Part shown: piece after piece, positions 526 through 13,104 of the stretch
How the letters are laid out: each line of letters opens with the position of its first letter
Numbering within the stretch: the stretch's first letter is position 1
NCBI GenBank assembly: GCA_903891375.1
Contig: CAITEL010000264.1
Span: forward strand, 1 to 13,594
Length of the DNA: 13,594 nt
Direction: 5' to 3'
Origin: an uncultured Neisseriaceae bacterium
Lineage (GTDB): Bacteria > Pseudomonadota > Gammaproteobacteria > Burkholderiales > UBA11063
The notes under the pieces: model-generated
What the model saw: the letters and a program-made list of their open reading frames with translations, nothing else
Told to the model about the DNA's origin: nothing
Database searches by the model: none
Made by a program: the position numbers and the translations under genes

Positions 526-838
526 ATGAGTTTTTTTAAAAATTTATTTAATTCTATGGGTGGCCATCATGGGGGGAGGTAATCGTGGTAGCGGTCATGG
601 AGGTTATAGTAATAATGATTATAATAATTATCCCCAACAACAGCAACAGCAACAAACAACCAAGATTCAACCATCAGGTAATGCTTGTCAAAAATGTAAT
701 ACCCAAAATGAGATAGGTGCAAAATTCTGTATGAATTGTGGTACTAGTTTGGCAAATGTGAGTAAATTTTGTGCAAATTGTGGTACACAAAATCAGGCAA
801 CGGGCAAATTTTGCTCTAACTGTGGCGGTCAAATATAA
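526..838 (+). pseudogene. Small double-zinc-ribbon protein, frame broken (or +1 frameshifted) at a G6 tract
   Basis: A strong ribosome site (GGAGGAG, 511-517) precedes ATG 526, which opens a frame reading MSFFKNLFNSMGGHHGGR and stops at TAA 580-582. The continuation lies in the +1 frame and runs to TAA 836-838. Removing one G from the GGGGGG run at 571-576 joins them into one protein of about 103 residues, reading HHGGGNRGSGHGG across the join. The parts are a short hydrophobic/basic N-terminus, a Gly/Asn/Tyr-rich linker, a Gln run of seven, and two zinc ribbons at the C-terminus with four CxxC pairs (CQKC, CMNC, CANC, CSNC), the DZR-type arrangement. Function is unknown. A GTG inside the second frame (560) could start only a headless product and lacks a fitting ribosome site. 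Causes to separate: sequencing error in the homopolymer, slippage mutation or phase variation, or programmed +1 frameshifting at GGG AGG TAA. Confidence 0.65.
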
Positions 839-887
839 TATACTCATTTATATTCAAAAATATGAGACTTGAATATGAATGAGTATA
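839..887 (+). terminator. Long hairpin immediately after the zinc-ribbon gene
   Basis: Arms at 839-857 and 869-887 are inverted repeats of 19 bp with a single T-G wobble, around an 11-base loop. The left arm begins right after the stop codon of the zinc-ribbon gene. No U-tract follows, so it could be an mRNA-stabilising or bidirectional structure rather than a classical intrinsic terminator. A second, weaker stem-loop follows (ACATGGCG paired with CGCCTCCATGT, 887-913). Confidence 0.45.
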
Positions 888-960
888 CATGGCGTAACTT
901 GTCGCCTCCATGTGTCTTGACTCTGTTCGAGTATAGATAAAGTAATAGAAACTAAAATAT

Positions 961-1683
961 ATGAAAATAACCCAGTCAAAATTTTTGATGCTATATATTG
1001 TATTAGCGATCCTTATGTGTGTGATTGAACTACGTGATATGGCTACATTACGTTATATAATTAAGCCTTTATTATGCTTGAGCTTAGTGGGTTATGTTTG
1101 TACAAGCTATAAAAAATATGGCTTGAGAAACTTACTGTTAATTCAGATTGCATTGATTTTCTCTTTTTTAGGCGATTCATTTTTACTTTTTCCTAATTTT
1201 TTTATTTTAGGTTTAATTTCTTTTCTTTTTGCGCATATAAGTTATATTGTGCTTTTCTATAAAGATGCTGATATATCCAATGTTATGCTCGCTAGAGCTA
1301 TACCCACATTACAAAAATCAGATACTAAAATTAATTTTATATTGGTTATTCTTGGGGTAATTGTTTATATAGGTGTATTTTATTTTTTAATACAAGATAA
1401 ATTACACGATTTAAAGATTCCTGTATTAATTTATATGATTGTGATTAGCCTTATGTTTATTTTAGCATTATTAAGAAAAGTTAAAGTAGGATATAAGGTG
1501 GTCGTTGTCGGGGCATTATTTTTTGTAATTTCTGACTCTACTTTAGCTATAAATATGTTTGTATCACAATTTAAATTCGCAAGCTTACTAATTATGGTTA
1601 CGTATATGCTAGCCCAATATCTTATTGTGACTGGGTGTGTCAAAAAATCTTTTCGTGATATACTTAGCACGGTCATCATTTGA
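961..1683 (+). CDS. YhhN/TMEM86-family membrane protein, putative lysoplasmalogenase
   Basis: This 240-residue, strongly hydrophobic protein has about eight predicted membrane helices. It carries the hallmarks of the YhhN (TMEM86) family: a KPLL segment near residues 36-39, FSFLGDSFLLFPNFFILGL (residues 67-85) with Asp72, and a C-terminal VISDSTLAINMF with Asp192 followed by TYMLAQYLI. The two aspartates are the conserved polar residues of the family. Characterised members (mammalian TMEM86B, bacterial lysoplasmalogenase) hydrolyse the vinyl-ether bond of lysoplasmalogen, giving a fatty aldehyde and a glycerophospho-alcohol. Substrate here is inferred. No clear Shine-Dalgarno precedes the ATG; TTGACT (916-921) with TAAAGT is a weak promoter candidate. 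The last eight residues and the stop codon lie inside a dispersed repeat starting at 1658, so the native C-terminus has probably been replaced. It is followed by a hydroxylase-type gene and an aldehyde dehydrogenase on the same strand. Confidence 0.8.
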   Translation: MKITQSKFLMLYIVLAILMCVIELRDMATLRYIIKPLLCLSLVGYVCTSYKKYGLRNLLLIQIALIFSFLGDSFLLFPNFFILGLISFLFAHISYIVLFYKDADISNVMLARAIPTLQKSDTKINFILVILGVIVYIGVFYFLIQDKLHDLKIPVLIYMIVISLMFILALLRKVKVGYKVVVVGALFFVISDSTLAINMFVSQFKFASLLIMVTYMLAQYLIVTGCVKKSFRDILSTVII

Positions 1684-1766
1684 ACTTTTTGATTTTGCTC
1701 CTGATGTACTACCTGTACACGGCGTCGCCTATCAAAAACCTCAAATTTCGAGCGCACTAAGTATAA
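1658..1766. repeat. Dispersed palindromic repeat, copy 1 (MITE-like)
   Basis: This element of about 109 bp is bounded by ATATACTTAGCACGG (1658-1672) and GCACTAAGTATA (1754-1765), which are imperfect terminal inverted repeats. Inside, TTGAACTTTTTGAT pairs with ATCAAAAACCTCAA (1731-1744), so most of the element can fold into a long imperfect hairpin. It shares three blocks with the copy at 12308-12422: GCTCCTGATGTAC (1697-1709), TACACGGCGTCGC (1716-1728) and ATCAAAAACCTCAA. It encodes no protein. It occupies nearly the whole gap between the lysoplasmalogenase and the hydroxylase gene and supplies the 3' end of the former. Confidence 0.75.
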
Positions 1767-1796
1767 ATTAGAAAAATAATATAAAGAGGAGTATAG

Positions 1797-2672
1797 ATGG
1801 ATTCGAGTTTAATTCTTTTACTTTTAGCACCAGTGTTTTTAGCGATTTTTGTTCTTGAGGTCTGGTATTGCTATAAAAAATGCATAAAAATGTATACACT
1901 CAAAGATACGTTAGCTAATATTTCATTATCGTTGATGTATCAAGTTTCAGATGTTATTTTTACGTTTTTAATTGTCAAAACTATCTATGTATGGGTATTT
2001 AATCATGGATTTAAATTGTTTAGTATAAATTCGGGATGGAATCTTTTTTTATTATTTATATGTCAAGACTTTCTCTATTATTGGTTTCATAGGTCGGCGC
2101 ATCGAATTAGATGGATGTGGGCGTCGCATGTTACACATCATTCTTCTACTAGGTTAAATTTTTCTACGGCTTTTAGGCAGAGTATGACTTATCCTATTTC
2201 TGGAATGTGGTTATTTTGGTTGCCTTTAGCATATATGGGGTTTAATCCAGATATGGTGATATTAGTTGTGGCCCTAAATTTGGCTTTTCAGTTTTTTATT
2301 CATACGCAACTGGTTAATAAAATTGGCTTTTTAGAAAAAATATTTAATACCCCTTCACATCATAGAGCGCATCATGGAACCAATCCACAATATATTGATA
2401 AAAATTATGCGGGGATTTTAATTATTTGGGACAAACTCTTTGGTACATTTGTTGAAGAAAAAGAGTCGCCCAATTATGGTATTGTTGGGCAAGTATATAG
2501 TTATAATCCGATAACTTTAACTTTTCATGAGTGGGTTAGCATGTTTAAGGATGTTGTTAAAACAGGAGATTTACGTTATTTCATCATGCCACCAGCGTGG
2601 AAACAAGTTAATAAAGCCAACAAATTTAAAGAAAGAAAAGTAGACGATGGAAAATCTGAAGACGTTGCATGA
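1797..2672 (+). CDS. Fatty acid hydroxylase/sterol desaturase-superfamily membrane protein, alkylglycerol monooxygenase-like
   Basis: This 291-residue integral membrane protein has the complete histidine set of the di-iron hydroxylase superfamily (Pfam fatty acid hydroxylase): HRSAH (98-102), HVTHH (111-115), His169 in FFIHTQ, and HRAHH (189-193), followed by the conserved NYAG (203-206) and WDKLFGTF (211-218). Such enzymes use a di-iron centre and O2 to oxidise lipid C-H bonds. The pattern of the last boxes and WDxLFGTF matches the alkylglycerol monooxygenase/TMEM195-like branch at least as well as true sterol desaturases. AGMO cleaves O-alkyl glycerol ethers to a fatty aldehyde. The exact reaction is inference, strengthened by a lysoplasmalogenase upstream and a fatty aldehyde dehydrogenase downstream. 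A good ribosome site, AGAGGA (1785-1790), precedes the ATG by 6 nt. Its 3' end overlaps the next gene by 26 bases, implying translational coupling. Confidence 0.8.
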   Translation: MDSSLILLLLAPVFLAIFVLEVWYCYKKCIKMYTLKDTLANISLSLMYQVSDVIFTFLIVKTIYVWVFNHGFKLFSINSGWNLFLLFICQDFLYYWFHRSAHRIRWMWASHVTHHSSTRLNFSTAFRQSMTYPISGMWLFWLPLAYMGFNPDMVILVVALNLAFQFFIHTQLVNKIGFLEKIFNTPSHHRAHHGTNPQYIDKNYAGILIIWDKLFGTFVEEKESPNYGIVGQVYSYNPITLTFHEWVSMFKDVVKTGDLRYFIMPPAWKQVNKANKFKERKVDDGKSEDVA

Positions 2673-4023
2673 TTACTTTCTTACGGGTGAGACCAAACAG
2701 TATGAGTTGCGTATACAAAAATTAAAACAACTTCGTCAAAGTATAAAAAATCATCAATTACAATTACAAGAAGCGTTAAATTTAGATTTAAATAAACCAG
2801 AAATGGAAAGTTATGCTAGTGAAATATCAATAGTTTATGATGAGATTAATTTTGCAATTAAGCATTTAAAATCATGGATGAAGCCGATTAATGTAGCAAC
2901 TCCATTACCATTTTTTTTATCGAAAAGCTTTATTTGTAAAGTTCCATTAGGTGTGGTACTTGTTATTTCACCATGGAATTATCCAGTGCAGTTATCGTTA
3001 TCACCTTTAGTTGGGGCAATCGTTGCGGGTAATTGTGTAGTTTTAAAACCATCAGAATTTACTCCTAATGTAAATAGTATAATAAAAAATATATTAAATG
3101 ACGTTTTTAGCAAAAATTATGTGGAGATATATGAGGGTGATGGTGCAAAAATAATTCCCCAGTTAATTAATTCTGGAATATTTAAGCATGTTTTTTTTAC
3201 AGGTTCTACGCTTGTAGGTAAAGAAATCGCAATTATGTGTGCAACAAAGTTAATCCCATATACTTTGGAGTTAGGTGGTAAGAGTCCAGCTATTGTAGAT
3301 AATACAGCAAAGCTAGAATTAGTAGCAAAGCGGTTGGTTTGGGCGAAATTTTATAATGCAGGTCAAACTTGTGTGGCGCCAGATTATGTTTTAGTGCATA
3401 AAGAGATTAAAGAGAAATTTATTGAATATTGTAAAAAATACATAGATATTTTTTACAATGGGCAATCACATACAATGTCTAAAATCATTACACAAAAACG
3501 TTTTAACACATTGTGTGATTATTTAGAAGGTACTGATATTATTTATGGTGGCGGGTATAATCGGGAAACACTATCGTTTGAGCCTACATTACTTAATGAA
3601 CCATCATTAAGTCATAAAGTTATGCAGGAAGAGATATTCGGGCCAATTTTACCACTTTTAACCTATGAAAATTTTACGGATATAGTTGAGGTTATAAATC
3701 ATAATCCAAACCCATTGGCTTTATATGTTTTTAGTGAGGATAAACAATTTACTAATAACATTATCCAAAATATTCAGTTTGGAGGTGGTGGGGTAAATAT
3801 TGCATTAATGCATGTGGTTAATATCAACTTACCTTTTGGTGGTATTATGTCGAGTGGTTGTGGTAAATATCATGGTAAATACAGTTTTGATATATTCTCT
3901 CATTCTAAATCTATTTTAAATATGTCCACTAAAATAGATGTAGCATTAAAATACCCACCATATACAAAATTTAAAACTTGGCTTTTAAGAAAATTACTAC
4001 CAAAACCATGCAATACAAAGTAA
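2647..4023 (+). CDS. Class 3 (ALDH3-type) fatty aldehyde dehydrogenase
   Basis: This 458-residue NAD(P)-dependent aldehyde dehydrogenase shows PWNYP (109-113), KPSE with Lys134 in the cofactor site, FFTGSTLVGK (183-192), the catalytic general base Glu208 in LELGGK, the nucleophile Cys242 in NAGQTC, EEIFGP (328-333) and PFGG before the C-terminus. Its short length and the ending KYHGKYSFDIFSHSKS followed by YPPYTKFKTWLLRKLL are typical of class 3 enzymes, which lack the long N-terminus of other ALDHs and often carry a C-terminal membrane-associating tail. Class 3 members oxidise medium- and long-chain fatty aldehydes to acids. The ATG lies inside the end of the hydroxylase gene (26-base overlap), with the purine-rich GAAAGAAAAG upstream. 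It would complete the pathway by detoxifying or salvaging the aldehyde released by the two preceding enzymes. All key residues are present and it appears intact. Confidence 0.9.
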   Translation: MENLKTLHDYFLTGETKQYELRIQKLKQLRQSIKNHQLQLQEALNLDLNKPEMESYASEISIVYDEINFAIKHLKSWMKPINVATPLPFFLSKSFICKVPLGVVLVISPWNYPVQLSLSPLVGAIVAGNCVVLKPSEFTPNVNSIIKNILNDVFSKNYVEIYEGDGAKIIPQLINSGIFKHVFFTGSTLVGKEIAIMCATKLIPYTLELGGKSPAIVDNTAKLELVAKRLVWAKFYNAGQTCVAPDYVLVHKEIKEKFIEYCKKYIDIFYNGQSHTMSKIITQKRFNTLCDYLEGTDIIYGGGYNRETLSFEPTLLNEPSLSHKVMQEEIFGPILPLLTYENFTDIVEVINHNPNPLALYVFSEDKQFTNNIIQNIQFGGGGVNIALMHVVNINLPFGGIMSSGCGKYHGKYSFDIFSHSKSILNMSTKIDVALKYPPYTKFKTWLLRKLLPKPCNTK

Positions 4024-4141
4024 TCATGCCAATTCAAGTGTGAAAAAGCAATTTCCATTTTCTATGGTATGTTTAAAATTTTATAGTAGTATTTGAAATT
4101 ATAGTATAATACAGGTAAATAACATCTTTTGTAAAAGGAAT

Positions 4142-4816
4142 TTACCGTTATGGAGAGGAATCTTTCGGCAAGAATCAAAAAATTACTCATATCGTGATGT
4201 GGCGATATTATTTCCACATATAAAAAAAGAAAATTTTCAACATTTTTTTAAAACACTTGCGTATTTATCGGGTACAATTATAAATAGAGCACAGCTTGCC
4301 CGTGATATTGAATGTAGCGAAACATCTATTCGAAATTATTTAGCTATTAGTGAGGGGACTTTTCTTTGGAGAAACATTCTTAGTTTTGAAAGAAGTGGTT
4401 ATAAAAATTTGGTCAAAATGCCTAAAGGTTACATGGCAGATTCTGGTCTGCTTCATTATCTTACAAAAATTAATGATATTGAAACTTTACGTCGTCATCC
4501 GATGATTGGTAAATCTTTTGAAGGATTTGTTATTAATGAAATCATAAAAGGGCTACAGTCTCAATCTATAGGTTCATGGGAGGCATACCATTACAGAACA
4601 AGACATGGTGCAGAAATTGACTTGATATTAGATGGACGTTTTGGTATTCTCCCTATAGAAATAAAATATGGCACAAGCATTGAACGTAGGTCATTAGTAA
4701 CTCTAAGTAAATTTGTAGAAGAGGAAAAACTACCACTTGGAATCGTTATTAATCAGTCAGATAAAATACTATGGTTAACGCCAAATATAATTCAAATCCC
4801 TGTTAGATATATTTAA
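4142..4816 (+). pseudogene. C-terminal remnant of an AAA_14/DUF4143-type ATPase
   Basis: The frame is open from about 4097 to TAA 4814-4816. Recognisable homology starts near 4142 with LPLWRGIF, upstream of the GTG at 4199, so that GTG is not the original start. What remains is the central winged-helix part (LARDIECSETSIRNYL) and the DUF4143 domain: KGYMADSGLLHYL, SFEGFVINEI (107-116, counted from the GTG), then YRTRHGAEIDLIL and LPIEIKYG (151-158), a PD-(D/E)XK-like D...ExK core. Full proteins are about 380-400 residues and begin with a P-loop ATPase domain (Walker A/B), which is absent here. Upstream bases to 4024 hold no such domain in any frame I can read. It is therefore a 5'-truncated gene, unlikely to function as an ATPase. 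Family members are scattered accessory proteins of unknown role. Confidence 0.75.
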
Positions 4817-4993
4817 GAATAATATAATTTTATGAAAAGTGCTTGATGTAATTACAGAAATTCAAACTCGAATTTGGTATAATAGATGATGTTTTTAAAC
4901 ATATGTTATTGACATTCTAAATCACAGTATGATATCATTATGTAATAATATCATTTTACAATACATGCCAGTGTTAAGTATATAATAAAGTTA
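4817..4993 (+). promoter_or_regulatory. Orphan promoter-like stretch with no gene downstream on its strand
   Basis: Two plus-strand promoter-like signals occur here: the extended -10 TGGTATAAT (4875-4883), overlapping the end of the partial palindrome CAAACTCGAATTTG; and TTGACA (4909-4914), 18 bases before TATCAT (4933-4938), which sits in the palindrome ATGATATCAT (4929-4938). ATATCAT recurs at 4948-4954, an operator-like arrangement. Downstream on the plus strand there is no gene until 7210, and the next gene body is on the opposite strand. These could drive an antisense or small RNA, or be the control region of a deleted gene. Confidence 0.3.
4963..4985. repeat. Isolated end of the dispersed palindromic repeat
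   Basis: Twenty-three bases are the exact reverse complement of 12308-12330, the left terminus of repeat copy 2, and contain its TATACTTAACACTGGCATG end. Similarity stops abruptly on both sides, and none of the internal blocks follows. It lies just beyond the stop codon of the minus-strand propeller gene. It is either a solo end left after deletion or a rearrangement scar. Confidence 0.65.
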
Positions 4994-5869
4994 TTACTTA
5001 TAACTCATTACTCCAATTGGTTCGATGCTGTTAGAACGACTAGTAAATGCTACATAAAGTCTACCATCGTTACCAAAATGCATTCCAAACCAACCTGTGT
5101 CAGGTAAAGAGTATAATGCAGAGAAATCAGCTTCACCAAAAGTTAACCAATTTGTACCATCGAAATATTTCACGATGGTATTATAACTGCCAAAATCTTG
5201 AAAAAGTACATATGGTTGGTGGCTAATTGGATTAAATTCAATTTGCACTTGAGCAGTTTGGTTGCTTGGTGAGGAAGAGTTGAAATTCTGTGCTCCAACA
5301 TAAACCCAGTTGGTACTATTATATTGTAAGACTGATACCGTGGCTACACTAGCGCTCAATATATTGGTATATGCAATGATTGGTTGATTATCTGTAGGAT
5401 CGAATGTTAATGAAATTGACCCATTACTCTTAGGAATGGAATCATGGTTACCAACATATTGCCAATTAATCCCATCAAATTGCATAACTTCAATCCTGCT
5501 ACTCGAATTTAGATTATAAAATGCGATGTACGGAATATTGTTATTTGGGTTTATTTTTAGTACTGGATTAGATGTGTAAGATGATTCATTTAATCCAGGC
5601 ATCCCAAGATAATTCCAACTTTCGCCATCATACTTTTTTATTGAGGTAGTAATATCTGATGTATTACTGTCATCGAAAGCAATATAAAGTTTTCCAGTGT
5701 TATCGAAATCAATTTGTGGGGCATTTAATCCACTGCCTCCACTACCAAAGTCAGTATCATTGTTAATTTGAACCCAAATTACACCATTATATTGTTCTAC
5801 AATCATGTGCTGAGTAACATTATCTATATATGTCACATATGGTTGCATAGTTACTGGATTTATTTTAAT
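4994..5869 (-). pseudogene. Beta-propeller-like repeat protein, C-terminal part (5' end lost)
   Basis: About five and a half tandem units of roughly 50 residues are visible. Each has a strand like IEFNPxxxQPYVxF followed by a (K/Q)(Y/F)DGxxWxYVG turn: YNGVIWVQI, YDGESWNYLG, FDGINWQYVG, YNSTNWVYVG and FDGTNWLTFG. This is the pattern of a sialidase/Kelch-like propeller, rich in Asn, Ser and Thr, as in exported proteins. I do not recognise a specific family. The in-frame ATG at 5848 is not a true start: the first repeat already begins upstream (IKINPVTMQPYV, from 5869), and no signal peptide is present. The frame is lost at a 16-bp palindrome at 5888-5903, beyond which a different frame encodes Ig-like repeats. 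It probably formed the C-terminal part of a large surface or secreted protein. Confidence 0.5.
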
Positions 5870-6615
5870 CTCTTTGGGTATAATTCCTCGCAGCTTGCTG
5901 CGACACTGTGACTCATATTGGTAATGGTTACTAATCGAGACTCCACGTCAATACCATCATTTATAATAGTCACATTATCTAATGGTGATAAAGCTAATAG
6001 TGCACGATATTCATTTGCAGTATAATAAAGAGTTAATATACGACTATAATTTTTAAAAGCAGTTCCATCATAATAAGTACTATTAAATTTAATAATGAAA
6101 GGTTTATTAATATCTGTTTGCATATCACTTAAATTTAGACGGAAAGTGCAACTACTATTTTGGCTAAGTGGTACAGTTGTGCTACAAGTGTCATTACTCT
6201 CGGTTATTACTGCACTTCCGAGTAGAGCTTGTGCGGATATACTTTGTATATTAATCGGTACCCCACCAATATTACTTACTGTTACACCAATACTAGTAGA
6301 TTGGGTAGCATTAAACATTACTAGGTTAGAGGAGGCAGTTAGTGTGACTAGGGCACCATTTTTACTGTTATACCATTGAATATTCTGTGTGGTAGAGTTT
6401 GGACCATTTGGAGTTGAGTTATCGTATCCTACAGTTATGGTAGAACTTCCATTGCCAGCACTAGGTACATTAAAGTATACAATACAATTTTGCCCAACAG
6501 TTAATTGCGTTCCTGTACTACAGGAATTATTACCATTAGTTAATGTTACTCCATCCTGAACTAAAATAGAATTAATAGCAGACGCTTGATTACCTGTATT
6601 GGTAACTGTCTGTAT
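5860..6615 (-). pseudogene. Ig-like (choice-of-anchor-D-type) repeat fragment of a surface protein
   Basis: A minus-strand frame of 251 codons is open from just after the stop at 6618-6616, with no start codon or signal peptide at its head. The ATG at 6318 falls in mid-protein. It has at least two repeats of the type VTNTGNxxxxINSI, CSTGTQLTVGQNC, then VSNIGGVPINIQSI, CSTTVPLSQNSSC, each with a Cys pair, followed by the beginning of a third (VTITNMSHS). Such modules, often labelled choice-of-anchor D, build extracellular bacterial proteins. The third repeat is cut after SHS by the sequence VAASCEELYPKRLK and a stop, encoded by the palindrome TCGCAGCTTGCTGCGA (5888-5903) and its flank. The propeller fragment follows directly in another frame. 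Both ends are broken, so it is a gene relic. Confidence 0.5.
5888..5903. repeat. Perfect 16-bp palindrome at a gene breakpoint
   Basis: TCGCAGCTTGCTGCGA comprises two perfectly complementary arms (TCGCAGC and GCTGCGA) around TT. It is GC-rich within AT-rich surroundings. It sits exactly where the Ig-like frame ends and the propeller frame begins, with GGGTATAAT at 5876-5884 next to it. It resembles the terminal part of a small mobile or repeat element left after excision. I saw no second copy in the window. Confidence 0.45.
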
Positions 6616-12307: not shown

Positions 12308-12422
12308 TTATATACTTAACACTGGCATGTGTGTTGAGCTTTTTCCATTTTCGCTCCTGATGTACGAGAGTTACACGGCGTCGCTCATCAAAAACCTCAA
12401 TTTGTGCCCGTGCTAAGTATAT
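12308..12422. repeat. Dispersed palindromic repeat, copy 2 (MITE-like)
   Basis: This copy of about 115 bp is bounded by TTATATACTTAACACTGG on the left and CCGTGCTAAGTATAT (12408-12422) on the right. The right end is the exact reverse complement of the left end of copy 1 (1658-1672). Shared internal blocks: GCTCCTGATGTAC (12353-12365), TACACGGCGTCGC (12372-12384) and ATCAAAAACCTCAA (12387-12400). It lies between the convergent MFS and orn genes, touching neither, and could serve as a bidirectional terminator or processing site. A small inverted repeat CCCTTT/AAAGGG at 12283-12295 precedes it. Confidence 0.75.
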
Positions 12423-12428
12423 GTAGGA

Positions 12429-12995
12429 TTATTTAATAAATAAATACTCTCGATAATGTTTTAATTCATTAATTGATTCAAAAATATCGGCTAATGCTTC
12501 GTGTTTGTTTTGTTTTTTGAAACTATTGTAGATTGATGGGTGCCAACGTTTAGCTAGTTCTTTTAAGGTGCTAACATCAAGGTTTCTGTAGTGTAGATGT
12601 TCCTCGAGTTTTGGCATAAATTTAGTGACAAATTTGCGATCTTGATATATGGTGTTACCACATAACGGTGATTTACCTTTAATGGTGTGTGTAGCTATTA
12701 GTTTTAATATTTCATTTTCTACTTGAGCTACATTGTATGTTGAAACTTTGACTCGATCGATTAATCCAGTTTTCGTATGCGTGTTAACATTCCACTTATC
12801 CATTTTCTTTAATTCATCTTCTGCTTGGAATATTGCATAACTCGGCGATTGAGCTAATGTATTTAAATCACCATCAGTAATTACGACTGCAACTTCAAGA
12901 ATAACATTTTGGTTGTGGTCAAGACCAGTCATTTCCATATCTAACCAAACCAAGTTATGTTCTTTTTTTGAAATATTATTACTGCTATCCGCCAT
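12429..12995 (-). CDS. orn: Oligoribonuclease (3'-5' exoribonuclease of short RNAs)
   Basis: Orn degrades two- to five-base RNA leftovers to mononucleotides, finishing RNA turnover and removing pGpG, and is essential in many gammaproteobacteria. The protein has the DEDDh fold: Asp19 and Glu21 in VWLDMEMTGLD, Asp119 in GNTIYQDRKF, then His165 and Asp170 in KHEALADIFESI. The family ending REYLF is present. Length is 188 residues from the ATG at 12995 (E. coli 181). The frame stays open 22 codons further up to 13061, but that stretch lies in the tRNA gene and is not part of the protein. The ribosome site is weak (GAAAGA, about 6 bases upstream). It lies 32 bases downstream of tRNA-Ile2 on the same strand and is probably transcribed from the tRNA promoter. 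Confidence 0.96.
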   Translation of the reverse strand: MADSSNNISKKEHNLVWLDMEMTGLDHNQNVILEVAVVITDGDLNTLAQSPSYAIFQAEDELKKMDKWNVNTHTKTGLIDRVKVSTYNVAQVENEILKLIATHTIKGKSPLCGNTIYQDRKFVTKFMPKLEEHLHYRNLDVSTLKELAKRWHPSIYNSFKKQNKHEALADIFESINELKHYREYLFIK

Positions 12996-13027
12996 ATTGA
13001 GTCTTTCAGAGGTGCAATGAGTAAAAA

Positions 13028-13104
13028 TGGTGGGCCCTGCTGGACTCGAACCAGCGACCAAAGGATTATGAGTCCTCTGCTCTAACCAACTGAGCTAAGA
13101 GCCC
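13028..13104 (-). tRNA. tRNA-Ile2, anticodon CAU (lysidine-modified, reads AUA)
   Basis: A 77-nt cloverleaf with encoded 3' CCA: acceptor GGGCTCT pairs with AGGGCCC (one G-U), D arm GCTC...GAGC, anticodon arm GAGGA-CTCATAA-TCCTT, T arm GCTGG-TTCGAGT-CCAGC. The anticodon is CAT, which by itself would suggest methionine. However, the body TTGGTCGCTGGTTC..GTCCAGCAGGG matches the E. coli tRNA-Ile2 I remember and not elongator tRNA-Met. TilS would convert C34 to lysidine so that it reads AUA, a frequent codon in this AT-rich genome. It is located directly upstream of orn. Confidence 0.9.

Follow-up and report, generated by a model that had tools for sequence, protein, structure and literature searches.

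Three neighbouring genes of an uncultured Neisseriaceae bacterium, encoding a putative lysoplasmalogenase of the YhhN family, a membrane hydroxylase resembling alkylglycerol monooxygenase (AGMO) and an aldehyde dehydrogenase (ALDH) of class-3 type, probably form a small module for the breakdown of ether lipids. We place the probability of this reading, which is drawn from sequence, close to 0.6. The window is the whole stretch of DNA analysed (contig CAITEL010000264.1, 13,594 nucleotides), and all positions given here refer to it.

In the proposed route, the substrate of the short AGMO-type hydroxylase would be an alkylglycerol or a lyso-alkyl-phospholipid, in which the alkyl carbon adjoining the ether oxygen would be hydroxylated with O2; the resulting hemiacetal would then decompose into a glycerol product and a fatty aldehyde. 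From lysoplasmalogen, YhhN would release an aldehyde of the same kind, together with a glycerophospho-alcohol, by adding water to the vinyl ether, and oxidation by the ALDH would turn the aldehyde into a reusable fatty acid. The lipids might be obtained by scavenging, which is our guess as to their source.

Identity and arrangement of the three genes

The three genes are neighbours on the plus strand. The first (961–1683, +) encodes a YhhN/TMEM86-type protein of 240 amino acids (aa), which matched PF07947 of Pfam with E = 9.4e-40 and 136.7 bits against a curated cut-off of 25.6. When the eight residues proposed for TMEM86 were located by motif and spacing without alignment to TMEM86, all eight were found: K35, G71, D72, H92, G184, S191, D192 and Y215, corresponding to K43, G81, D82, H104, G182, S189, D190 and Y213 of TMEM86A. 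The domain and these residues are common to the known lysoplasmalogenases (TMEM86A/B, YhhN of Legionella pneumophila and Rv1401 of M. tuberculosis), and for the Legionella and M. tuberculosis members of the family lysoplasmalogenase activity is reported to have been demonstrated. The window protein can be regarded as a putative lysoplasmalogenase; unlike the known ones, its gene adjoins an AGMO-like gene and has its last seven codons in a repeated element.

This element (1659–1765) is short and MITE-like with 35-nt inverted ends (77%). It spans the last seven codons and the stop codon of YhhN and fills most of the 113-base gap to the hydroxylase gene, and a second copy lies near 12310–12422 (80% over 95 nt). 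The hydroxylase gene (1797–2672, +; 291 aa) is preceded by AGAGGAG (1785–1791, +), which from reading of the sequence is its likely ribosome-binding site. The RNA fold of the gap was unremarkable (z = -0.34), the Rfam search returned tRNA only, and no terminator-like site was found in positions 800–4300, versus a mean of 1.6 in shuffled sequences.

The ALDH gene (2647–4023, +; 458 aa) begins inside the hydroxylase gene, and the overlap of 26 bases (2647–2672, +) fits, by eye, the tail of P0001 and the head of P0242, whose contigs agree in length and source, and appears to be kept in a related contig. Its product matched Aldedh PF00171 of Pfam (E = 1.2e-82) and carries the motifs GQTC, ELGGKSP and YPPY, with the catalytic Cys and Glu present. 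The best matches among solved chains were 6k0z, named 'Aldehyde dehydrogenase' (417 bits), 4qgk, a human-named fatty aldehyde dehydrogenase (FALDH, 329 bits), and the ALDH3-type 3sza (326 bits); since FALDH and ALDH3A1 score so similarly, the scores do not settle the substrate. ALDH3A2/class-3 ALDH, which is among these best matches, has YPPY and the catalytic motifs in common with the window ALDH. Unlike ALDH3A2, the window ALDH shows no hydrophobic C-terminal anchor, as no such segment was found at the cut-off used.

Coordinates and Pfam matches agree with the preliminary description, which had named these three genes, placed them on one strand and noted the 26-base overlap of the last two, and its assignments to YhhN/TMEM86 and class-3 ALDH are borne out by the domains, residues and structure matches given above. 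It had also read the set as a candidate operon. The gene names and the AGMO-like assignment in that reading stand; a single transcript for all three genes is not supported, YhhN lying 113 bases away and being unlinked to the hydroxylase in a relative (G003), and its suggestion of host lipid as the substrate is speculative.

The AGMO-type signature of the hydroxylase

The hydroxylase matched FA_hydroxylase PF04116 of Pfam with E = 1.4e-30 and 106.8 bits (cut-off 31). For human AGMO, 15 residues are reported as essential, namely nine His and Q162, D233, N235, Y236, W243 and D244. When this list was applied to the window protein, 15 of 15 were present: the nine His of the di-iron centre (H98, 102, 111, 114, 115, 169, 189, 192 and 193) and, with matching spacing, Q128, D201, N203, Y204, W211 and D212. 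The likeness to animal AGMO (TMEM195) is to this reported set of residues. The earlier statement that this is a membrane di-iron hydroxylase with all histidine boxes is confirmed by the nine His; these are common to all PF04116 clades counted and therefore are not AGMO-specific.

Among the six non-His residues, only the Gln separates the AGMO-type clades well from other PF04116 rows. At the position of AGMO Q162, which is Q128 here (codon 2178–2180, +) and the most discriminating of the 15, Gln was found in 33/33 rows of the window's clade and 41/42 rows of the AGMO-C/fusion clade, and in 0/9 rows of one sister set and 0/18 outside rows. The tree united these two clades in a superclade (100/96) that excluded every one of the 16 distant PF04116 rows. 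Its AGMO references were bacterial AGMP_C-bearing proteins and its 16 distant rows were unnamed, so that the comparison with animal AGMO and with sterol or carotenoid enzymes is indirect. Of the points on grouping raised in the preliminary description, the residue signature and the shared superclade with bacterial AGMO-C proteins hold. Judged by these residues, the AGMO reading of the hydroxylase is better than a guess.

Human AGMO is approximately 445 aa in length, whereas the window protein has 291 aa and is without the AGMO C-terminal domain AGMP_C (PF24858); in the Pfam search, this domain was not found in the window hydroxylase or in the G003 and G004 copies, which gave PF04116 only. The longer AGMO-C and fused bacterial forms make up a clade separate from that of the window hydroxylase. 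The search of solved structures by sequence gave no match for the hydroxylase, the hydroxylase alignment or YhhN, and two chance-level matches for a fusion protein described below. Ornithine lipid hydroxylase OlsE was considered and rejected (69.4 bits against the NCBIfam NF052566 cut-off of 475).

Pterin carbinolamine dehydratase (PCD) and Biopterin_H were found in the window's own genome and in G003, and were not found in G004 or in G019, which is 81% complete; the pterin genes hence do not track the hydroxylase across these four genomes. A possible link to BH4 through pterin recycling had looked promising from the PCD in the own genome, before the genes failed to track the hydroxylase in G004 and G019. 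The search of the own genome for a CarF/PEDS1-type desaturase, run without a working control, gave no match.

Hydroxylase and YhhN genes as neighbours or fusions in relatives

Of the 23 genomes examined in the genus, four carried the hydroxylase; YhhN was present in all of these (4/4) and in none of the remainder (0/19). A similar association was observed in the class sample (10/12 versus 10/264) and in the order sample (17/18 versus 30/282), all of these being plain genome counts in which shared descent is ignored. The two genes were fused or adjoining in 9 of the 17 order genomes with both, and linked in only 2 of the 10 such genomes of the class sample, where most co-occurrences were unlinked.

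The arrangement varied. The gap between YhhN and the hydroxylase is 2 bases in G004, where the ALDH is on another contig, and 1 base in G035; in G003 the ALDH comes first, 18 bases from the hydroxylase, and YhhN is bordered on both sides by other genes. G019, of the same genus, encodes a 578-aa hydroxylase-YhhN fusion protein with the ALDH 6 bases downstream, and 81 of the 120 relatives listed for this fusion are at least 560 aa long. Such FA_hydroxylase-YhhN fusions are common in Burkholderiales; those of Variovorax, Ramlibacter and Polaromonas hold the window's two families in one chain, but their hydroxylase part belongs to the longer clade and not to that of the window. The hydroxylase and ALDH are linked in 3 of the 4 genus genomes with the hydroxylase, and in G354, of another family, a hydroxylase, an unnamed membrane ORF and an ALDH lie close together on one strand. 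The conservation of neighbours asked about at the outset is therefore found, as linkage in the genus and as hydroxylase-YhhN gene fusions in other genomes.

Different results were obtained for 80 loci of named relatives of the hydroxylase (47–69% identity, 66 of them nearly full length), with flanks of up to 8 kb. YhhN was found in 0/80 flanks, and clustering of the neighbours gave no interpretable shared partner. An ALDH match at E ≤ 1e-8 was present in only two: L028, the G003 locus already described, and L062, where it scored 120 bits at a distance of about 4 kb. Likewise, no ALDH at this threshold was found within up to 6 kb on each side of four fusions (L178, L179, L183 and L186). The loci, which represent the window's clade in Cupriavidus, Ralstonia, Lysobacter, Burkholderia and others, favor the view that the AGMO-type hydroxylase has another role, the hydroxylation or oxidation of a lipid of the cell itself or of a secondary metabolite, with YhhN acting alone on scavenged lysoplasmalogen and the ALDH serving general aldehyde clean-up. 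The absence of tracking by pterin genes points the same way, as does PRUB680 of Pseudoalteromonas rubra, the one bacterial AGMO-like enzyme of which we found a description, which cyclises prodigiosin. We consider this view unlikely but not negligible, because the full set of AGMO-essential residues is kept, the discriminating Gln included, the OlsE match is weak, and the hydroxylase and YhhN share the same four genus genomes.

All three genes were together only in G000 and G019, both of one genus, and the ALDH is present in four genus genomes without the hydroxylase, including G016, where an ALDH very similar to that of G019 occurs with no match to the hydroxylase or YhhN. These facts would suit three unrelated lipid and aldehyde genes that are neighbours by chance; because linkage recurs, in varying orders and as fusions, with the ALDH joined to the hydroxylase in most of the genus genomes concerned and the overlap apparently kept, we reject this as the main reading and regard it as very improbable. 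Slightly less probable still is action in series, in which the hydroxylase turns an alkyl ether into a hydroxy-ether or, like PEDS1, into a vinyl ether, YhhN cleaves that product and the ALDH removes the aldehyde: a fused chain fits a shared intermediate equally as well as two parallel cuts, but the residue signature is that of the monooxygenase AGMO, whose product is thought to fall apart unaided, and YhhN is also found without the hydroxylase family, for example in the E. coli control genome.

Significance for ether-lipid use

The ether-lipid module preferred here has a wider form, for which we judge the chances finely balanced and just on the doubtful side. Proteobacteria may possess a dedicated ether-lipid scavenging module of an AGMO-type oxygenase and a lysoplasmalogenase, adjoining or fused into a bifunctional chain several times independently, and one genus may couple two different hydroxylase clades to its resident class-3 ALDH. 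In a literature search with most subscription papers outside its scope, no report was found of a link between AGMO and YhhN, including the hydroxylase-YhhN fusion, and the literature searched held no biochemical evidence for the window's hydroxylase clade. Alkylglycerol monooxygenase and lysoplasmalogenase are treated separately in PMC9131029.

In PMC7911779, AGMO is called the sole known alkylglycerol-degrading enzyme, and repeat purification of AGMO is reported to have been attempted and to have failed. Bacterial AGMO-type enzymes tied to a lysoplasmalogenase would provide new proteins for study and a test of whether pterin is always needed, and the fusions predict that one chain cuts both alkyl and alkenyl lysolipids. 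Many microbes with YhhN are not equipped to make plasmalogens; PMC9052158 asks for the reason, and an enzyme set of this kind would bear on that question. If the scavenging module is real, bacteria that do not make plasmalogens could feed on ether lipids of both the alkyl and the alkenyl kind, taken from eukaryotes or from other bacteria.

The three-gene locus

The genome (G000) amounts to 2.08 Mb in 422 contigs and is 94% complete, and the window is one entire contig. The preliminary description reported genes for YhhN, an AGMO-like hydroxylase and a class-3-type aldehyde dehydrogenase (ALDH). The three ORFs are present as described (961-1683, 1797-2672 and 2647-4023, all +), and their YhhN, FA_hydroxylase and Aldedh domains score far over the Pfam cut-offs. 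Measured in 1-kb steps, GC content is 29-33% across the three genes, similar to the 29-37% of the rest of the contig. The hydroxylase and ALDH genes overlap by 26 bases, YhhN is located 113 bases upstream of the hydroxylase, and no terminator-like site was found in the three-gene region. A single transcript is likely for hydroxylase and ALDH, and possible for all three genes. When the top 30 rows of the hydroxylase and ALDH lists of relatives were compared for shared contigs, size and source agreed for P0001 and P0242 (4218 bases) and for P0018 and P0249 (3220 bases), and therefore each pair probably shares a contig; a third pair, both on 861 kb contigs, was little informative. Judged by eye, the end of P0001 and the beginning of P0242 are consistent with the 26-base overlap of the window.

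Most of the gap between YhhN and the hydroxylase, together with the last seven YhhN codons, is occupied by a repeated element of 107 bases with 35-nt imperfect inverted ends (1659-1765). A second copy lies near 12310-12422 (80% alike over 95 nt), and a lone matching 23-base end at 4963-4985. The element, 107-113 bases long with the inverted ends TATACTTA...TAAGTATA, is MITE-like. In G004, a genome of the same genus, the two genes are only 2 bases apart, so the compact arrangement may be the ancestral one. DUF4143 is usually part of a longer ATPase, and the ORF downstream of ALDH (4199-4816, +) holds the DUF4143 part only, so it is possibly a remnant. Two adjoining ORFs with no Pfam match (4994-6318, -) are possibly one gene split in two. 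A tRNA-Met (13028-13104, -) overlaps the oligoribonuclease ORF as mechanically extended to a TTG start (12429-13061); the true start of that gene probably lies further in.

Residues and phylogeny of the hydroxylase

Nine histidines and six further residues are essential in human AGMO, according to the Figure 2 legend of PMC7911779, and the window hydroxylase has all 15 with matching spacing. Residues were counted over the rows of a hydroxylase tree, which shows which of the 15 positions separate AGMO-type from other PF04116 proteins. The tree has 111 rows, with 80 named loci thinned to 14, and contains neither animal AGMO nor a named sterol enzyme. At the position of Q162 (human numbering), Gln is found throughout the window's clade (33/33 rows) and in 41/42 rows of the AGMO-C/fusion clade, which comprises AGMP_C-bearing and YhhN-fused proteins, but in 0/9 rows of a sister set and 0/18 other rows (16 distant rows, L232, and L230, which is drawn just within the 94-row superclade). 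Nine further mixed rows have Gln in six cases, five of which fall in the window's clade in the drawn tree (38 rows, support 99/99); the sixth, L236, lies outside both clades. The D233 position is Asp in 71/75 rows of the two AGMO-type clades and 3/18 of the other rows, and is less telling because it is also Asp in 9/9 of the sister set. The histidines, N235 and D244 are common to every row counted.

The tree places the window's clade, the shorter of the two, as a sister of the AGMO-C/fusion clade and distinct from it; deep placement is unsure because of long branches among the distant rows. Domain search found no AGMP_C in the hydroxylases of the window, G003 and G004, and within the AGMO-C/fusion clade it turned up in some rows only. 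The G003 copy (L128:3145-3942) diverges from its relatives near the C-terminus.

Linkage and fusion of hydroxylase and YhhN

Among 23 genus genomes, several of them incomplete, AGMO-type hydroxylase (E<=1e-48) was found in G000, G003, G004 and G019, and YhhN in the identical four (4/4 with hydroxylase versus 0/19 without; calculated by hand, a chance of roughly 1 in 8855 with the genomes taken as independent). G002, G013 and G022 gave weak hydroxylase matches only. The ALDH (E<=1e-60) is present in 8/23, namely these four and four without hydroxylase. The order in the window is YhhN, hydroxylase, ALDH; in G004 YhhN precedes the hydroxylase and ALDH is on a separate contig; in G003 ALDH precedes the hydroxylase by an 18-base gap and YhhN is on another contig amid unrelated genes. 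A same-strand block resembling a small biosynthetic cluster, with an alpha-oxoamine-synthase-like enzyme (PRK07505), a 2OG-Fe(II) oxygenase and others, adjoins the pair in G004 (L126:201-6651).

G019 encodes a single 578-aa hydroxylase-YhhN protein, followed by ALDH after 6 bases. Its hydroxylase part sits in the AGMO-C/fusion clade and not in the window's, so that one genus has two hydroxylase clades beside the same kind of ALDH. The single-contig genome G016 has a very close ALDH (branches 0.03 and 0.05 for G016 and G019), adjoining a LysR-type gene seemingly the same as that of G019 by eye, and its search gave no hydroxylase or YhhN match; the fusion gene was thus either acquired next to an ALDH already in place or lost from beside it. 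Databases already contain such fusions. Among 120 relatives listed for the G019 protein, many carry both domains, under the names 'lysoplasmalogenase family protein', 'sterol desaturase' or 'alkylglycerol monooxygenase'.

In the class sample (276 genomes), YhhN was over the cut-off in 12, and hydroxylase (E<=1e-20) occurred in 10/12 of these versus 10/264 others, although the two were linked in only 2/10 genomes having both (G000, G238). In the order sample (300 genomes, excluding G019, whose completeness is under 90), 18 had YhhN over the cut-off, and hydroxylase at E<=1e-24 occurred in 17/18 versus 30/282 others (48/282 at the looser E<=1e-15). The E<=1e-24 threshold is drawn by score and not by the tree, and it takes in some rows of the non-Gln set. 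Fisher's test, ignoring shared descent, gave p values of 1.9e-11 (class) and 1.9e-14 (order). The 17 genomes span seven families. Neighbourhoods were read in 60 + 12 regions, a subset of the matches. The two genes are fused or adjacent in 9/17 (G000, G004, G035, where 1 base separates them, G238, G420, G539, G560, G583, G586) and neither in 8/17 (G003, G318, G363, G403, G442, G534, G553, G576). G354, of another family of the order, has an AGMO-C/fusion-clade hydroxylase, a membrane ORF without Pfam match and ALDH, closely spaced in this order on one strand (L189:3505-6900), possibly a second kind of hydroxylase-ALDH set; its ALDH and that of the window share the best NCBIfam model, under the cut-off for both. 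Weaker ALDH matches (113-120 bits) lie 2.5-4 kb from the hydroxylase in G030, G352 and L062.

The ether-lipid reading

Several observations count against this reading. Of at least 482 confirmed hydroxylase relatives, 80 (47-69% identity) were retained; the flanks examined contained no YhhN (E<=1e-3), and the only ALDH matches (E<=1e-8) were at L062 and at L028, the latter being the G003 locus. The window's hydroxylase clade thus mostly occurs without these partners. Pterin recycling genes do not track the hydroxylase: Pterin_4a and Biopterin_H adjoin each other at G000:C174 and G003:C302, the only 2/4 hydroxylase-bearing genus genomes that show them. CarF/PEDS1 was not found in the genome of the window by a search run without a positive control. 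A bacterial AGMO-like enzyme, PRUB680, makes cycloprodigiosin, according to a review (PMC6667630).

For TMEM86A/B, PMC11994398 proposes from conservation K43, G81, D82, H104, G182, S189, D190 and Y213, which mutation found crucial except G81/87; the counterparts in the window YhhN are K35, G71, D72, H92, G184, S191, D192 and Y215. According to PMC9052158, lysoplasmalogenase activity has been demonstrated for YhhN proteins of Legionella and M. tuberculosis, and M. tuberculosis is described there as lacking own plasmalogens. High-ranking solved relatives of the window ALDH are class-3 enzymes, FALDH among them; since ALDH3A1 scores about equally, long-chain aldehyde specificity of the window enzyme is inferred.

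The proposed ether-lipid breakdown operon is plausible, with more support than the preliminary description could draw on; the enzymatic functions stay predicted. What stands out most among the new findings is that AGMO-type hydroxylase and YhhN are repeatedly linked or fused. The simplest reading of this recurrence is that hydroxylase and YhhN would act jointly in ether-lipid cleavage. Host lipid is a candidate substrate, and scavenging of lipid from protists, from animals or from other bacteria would each fit.
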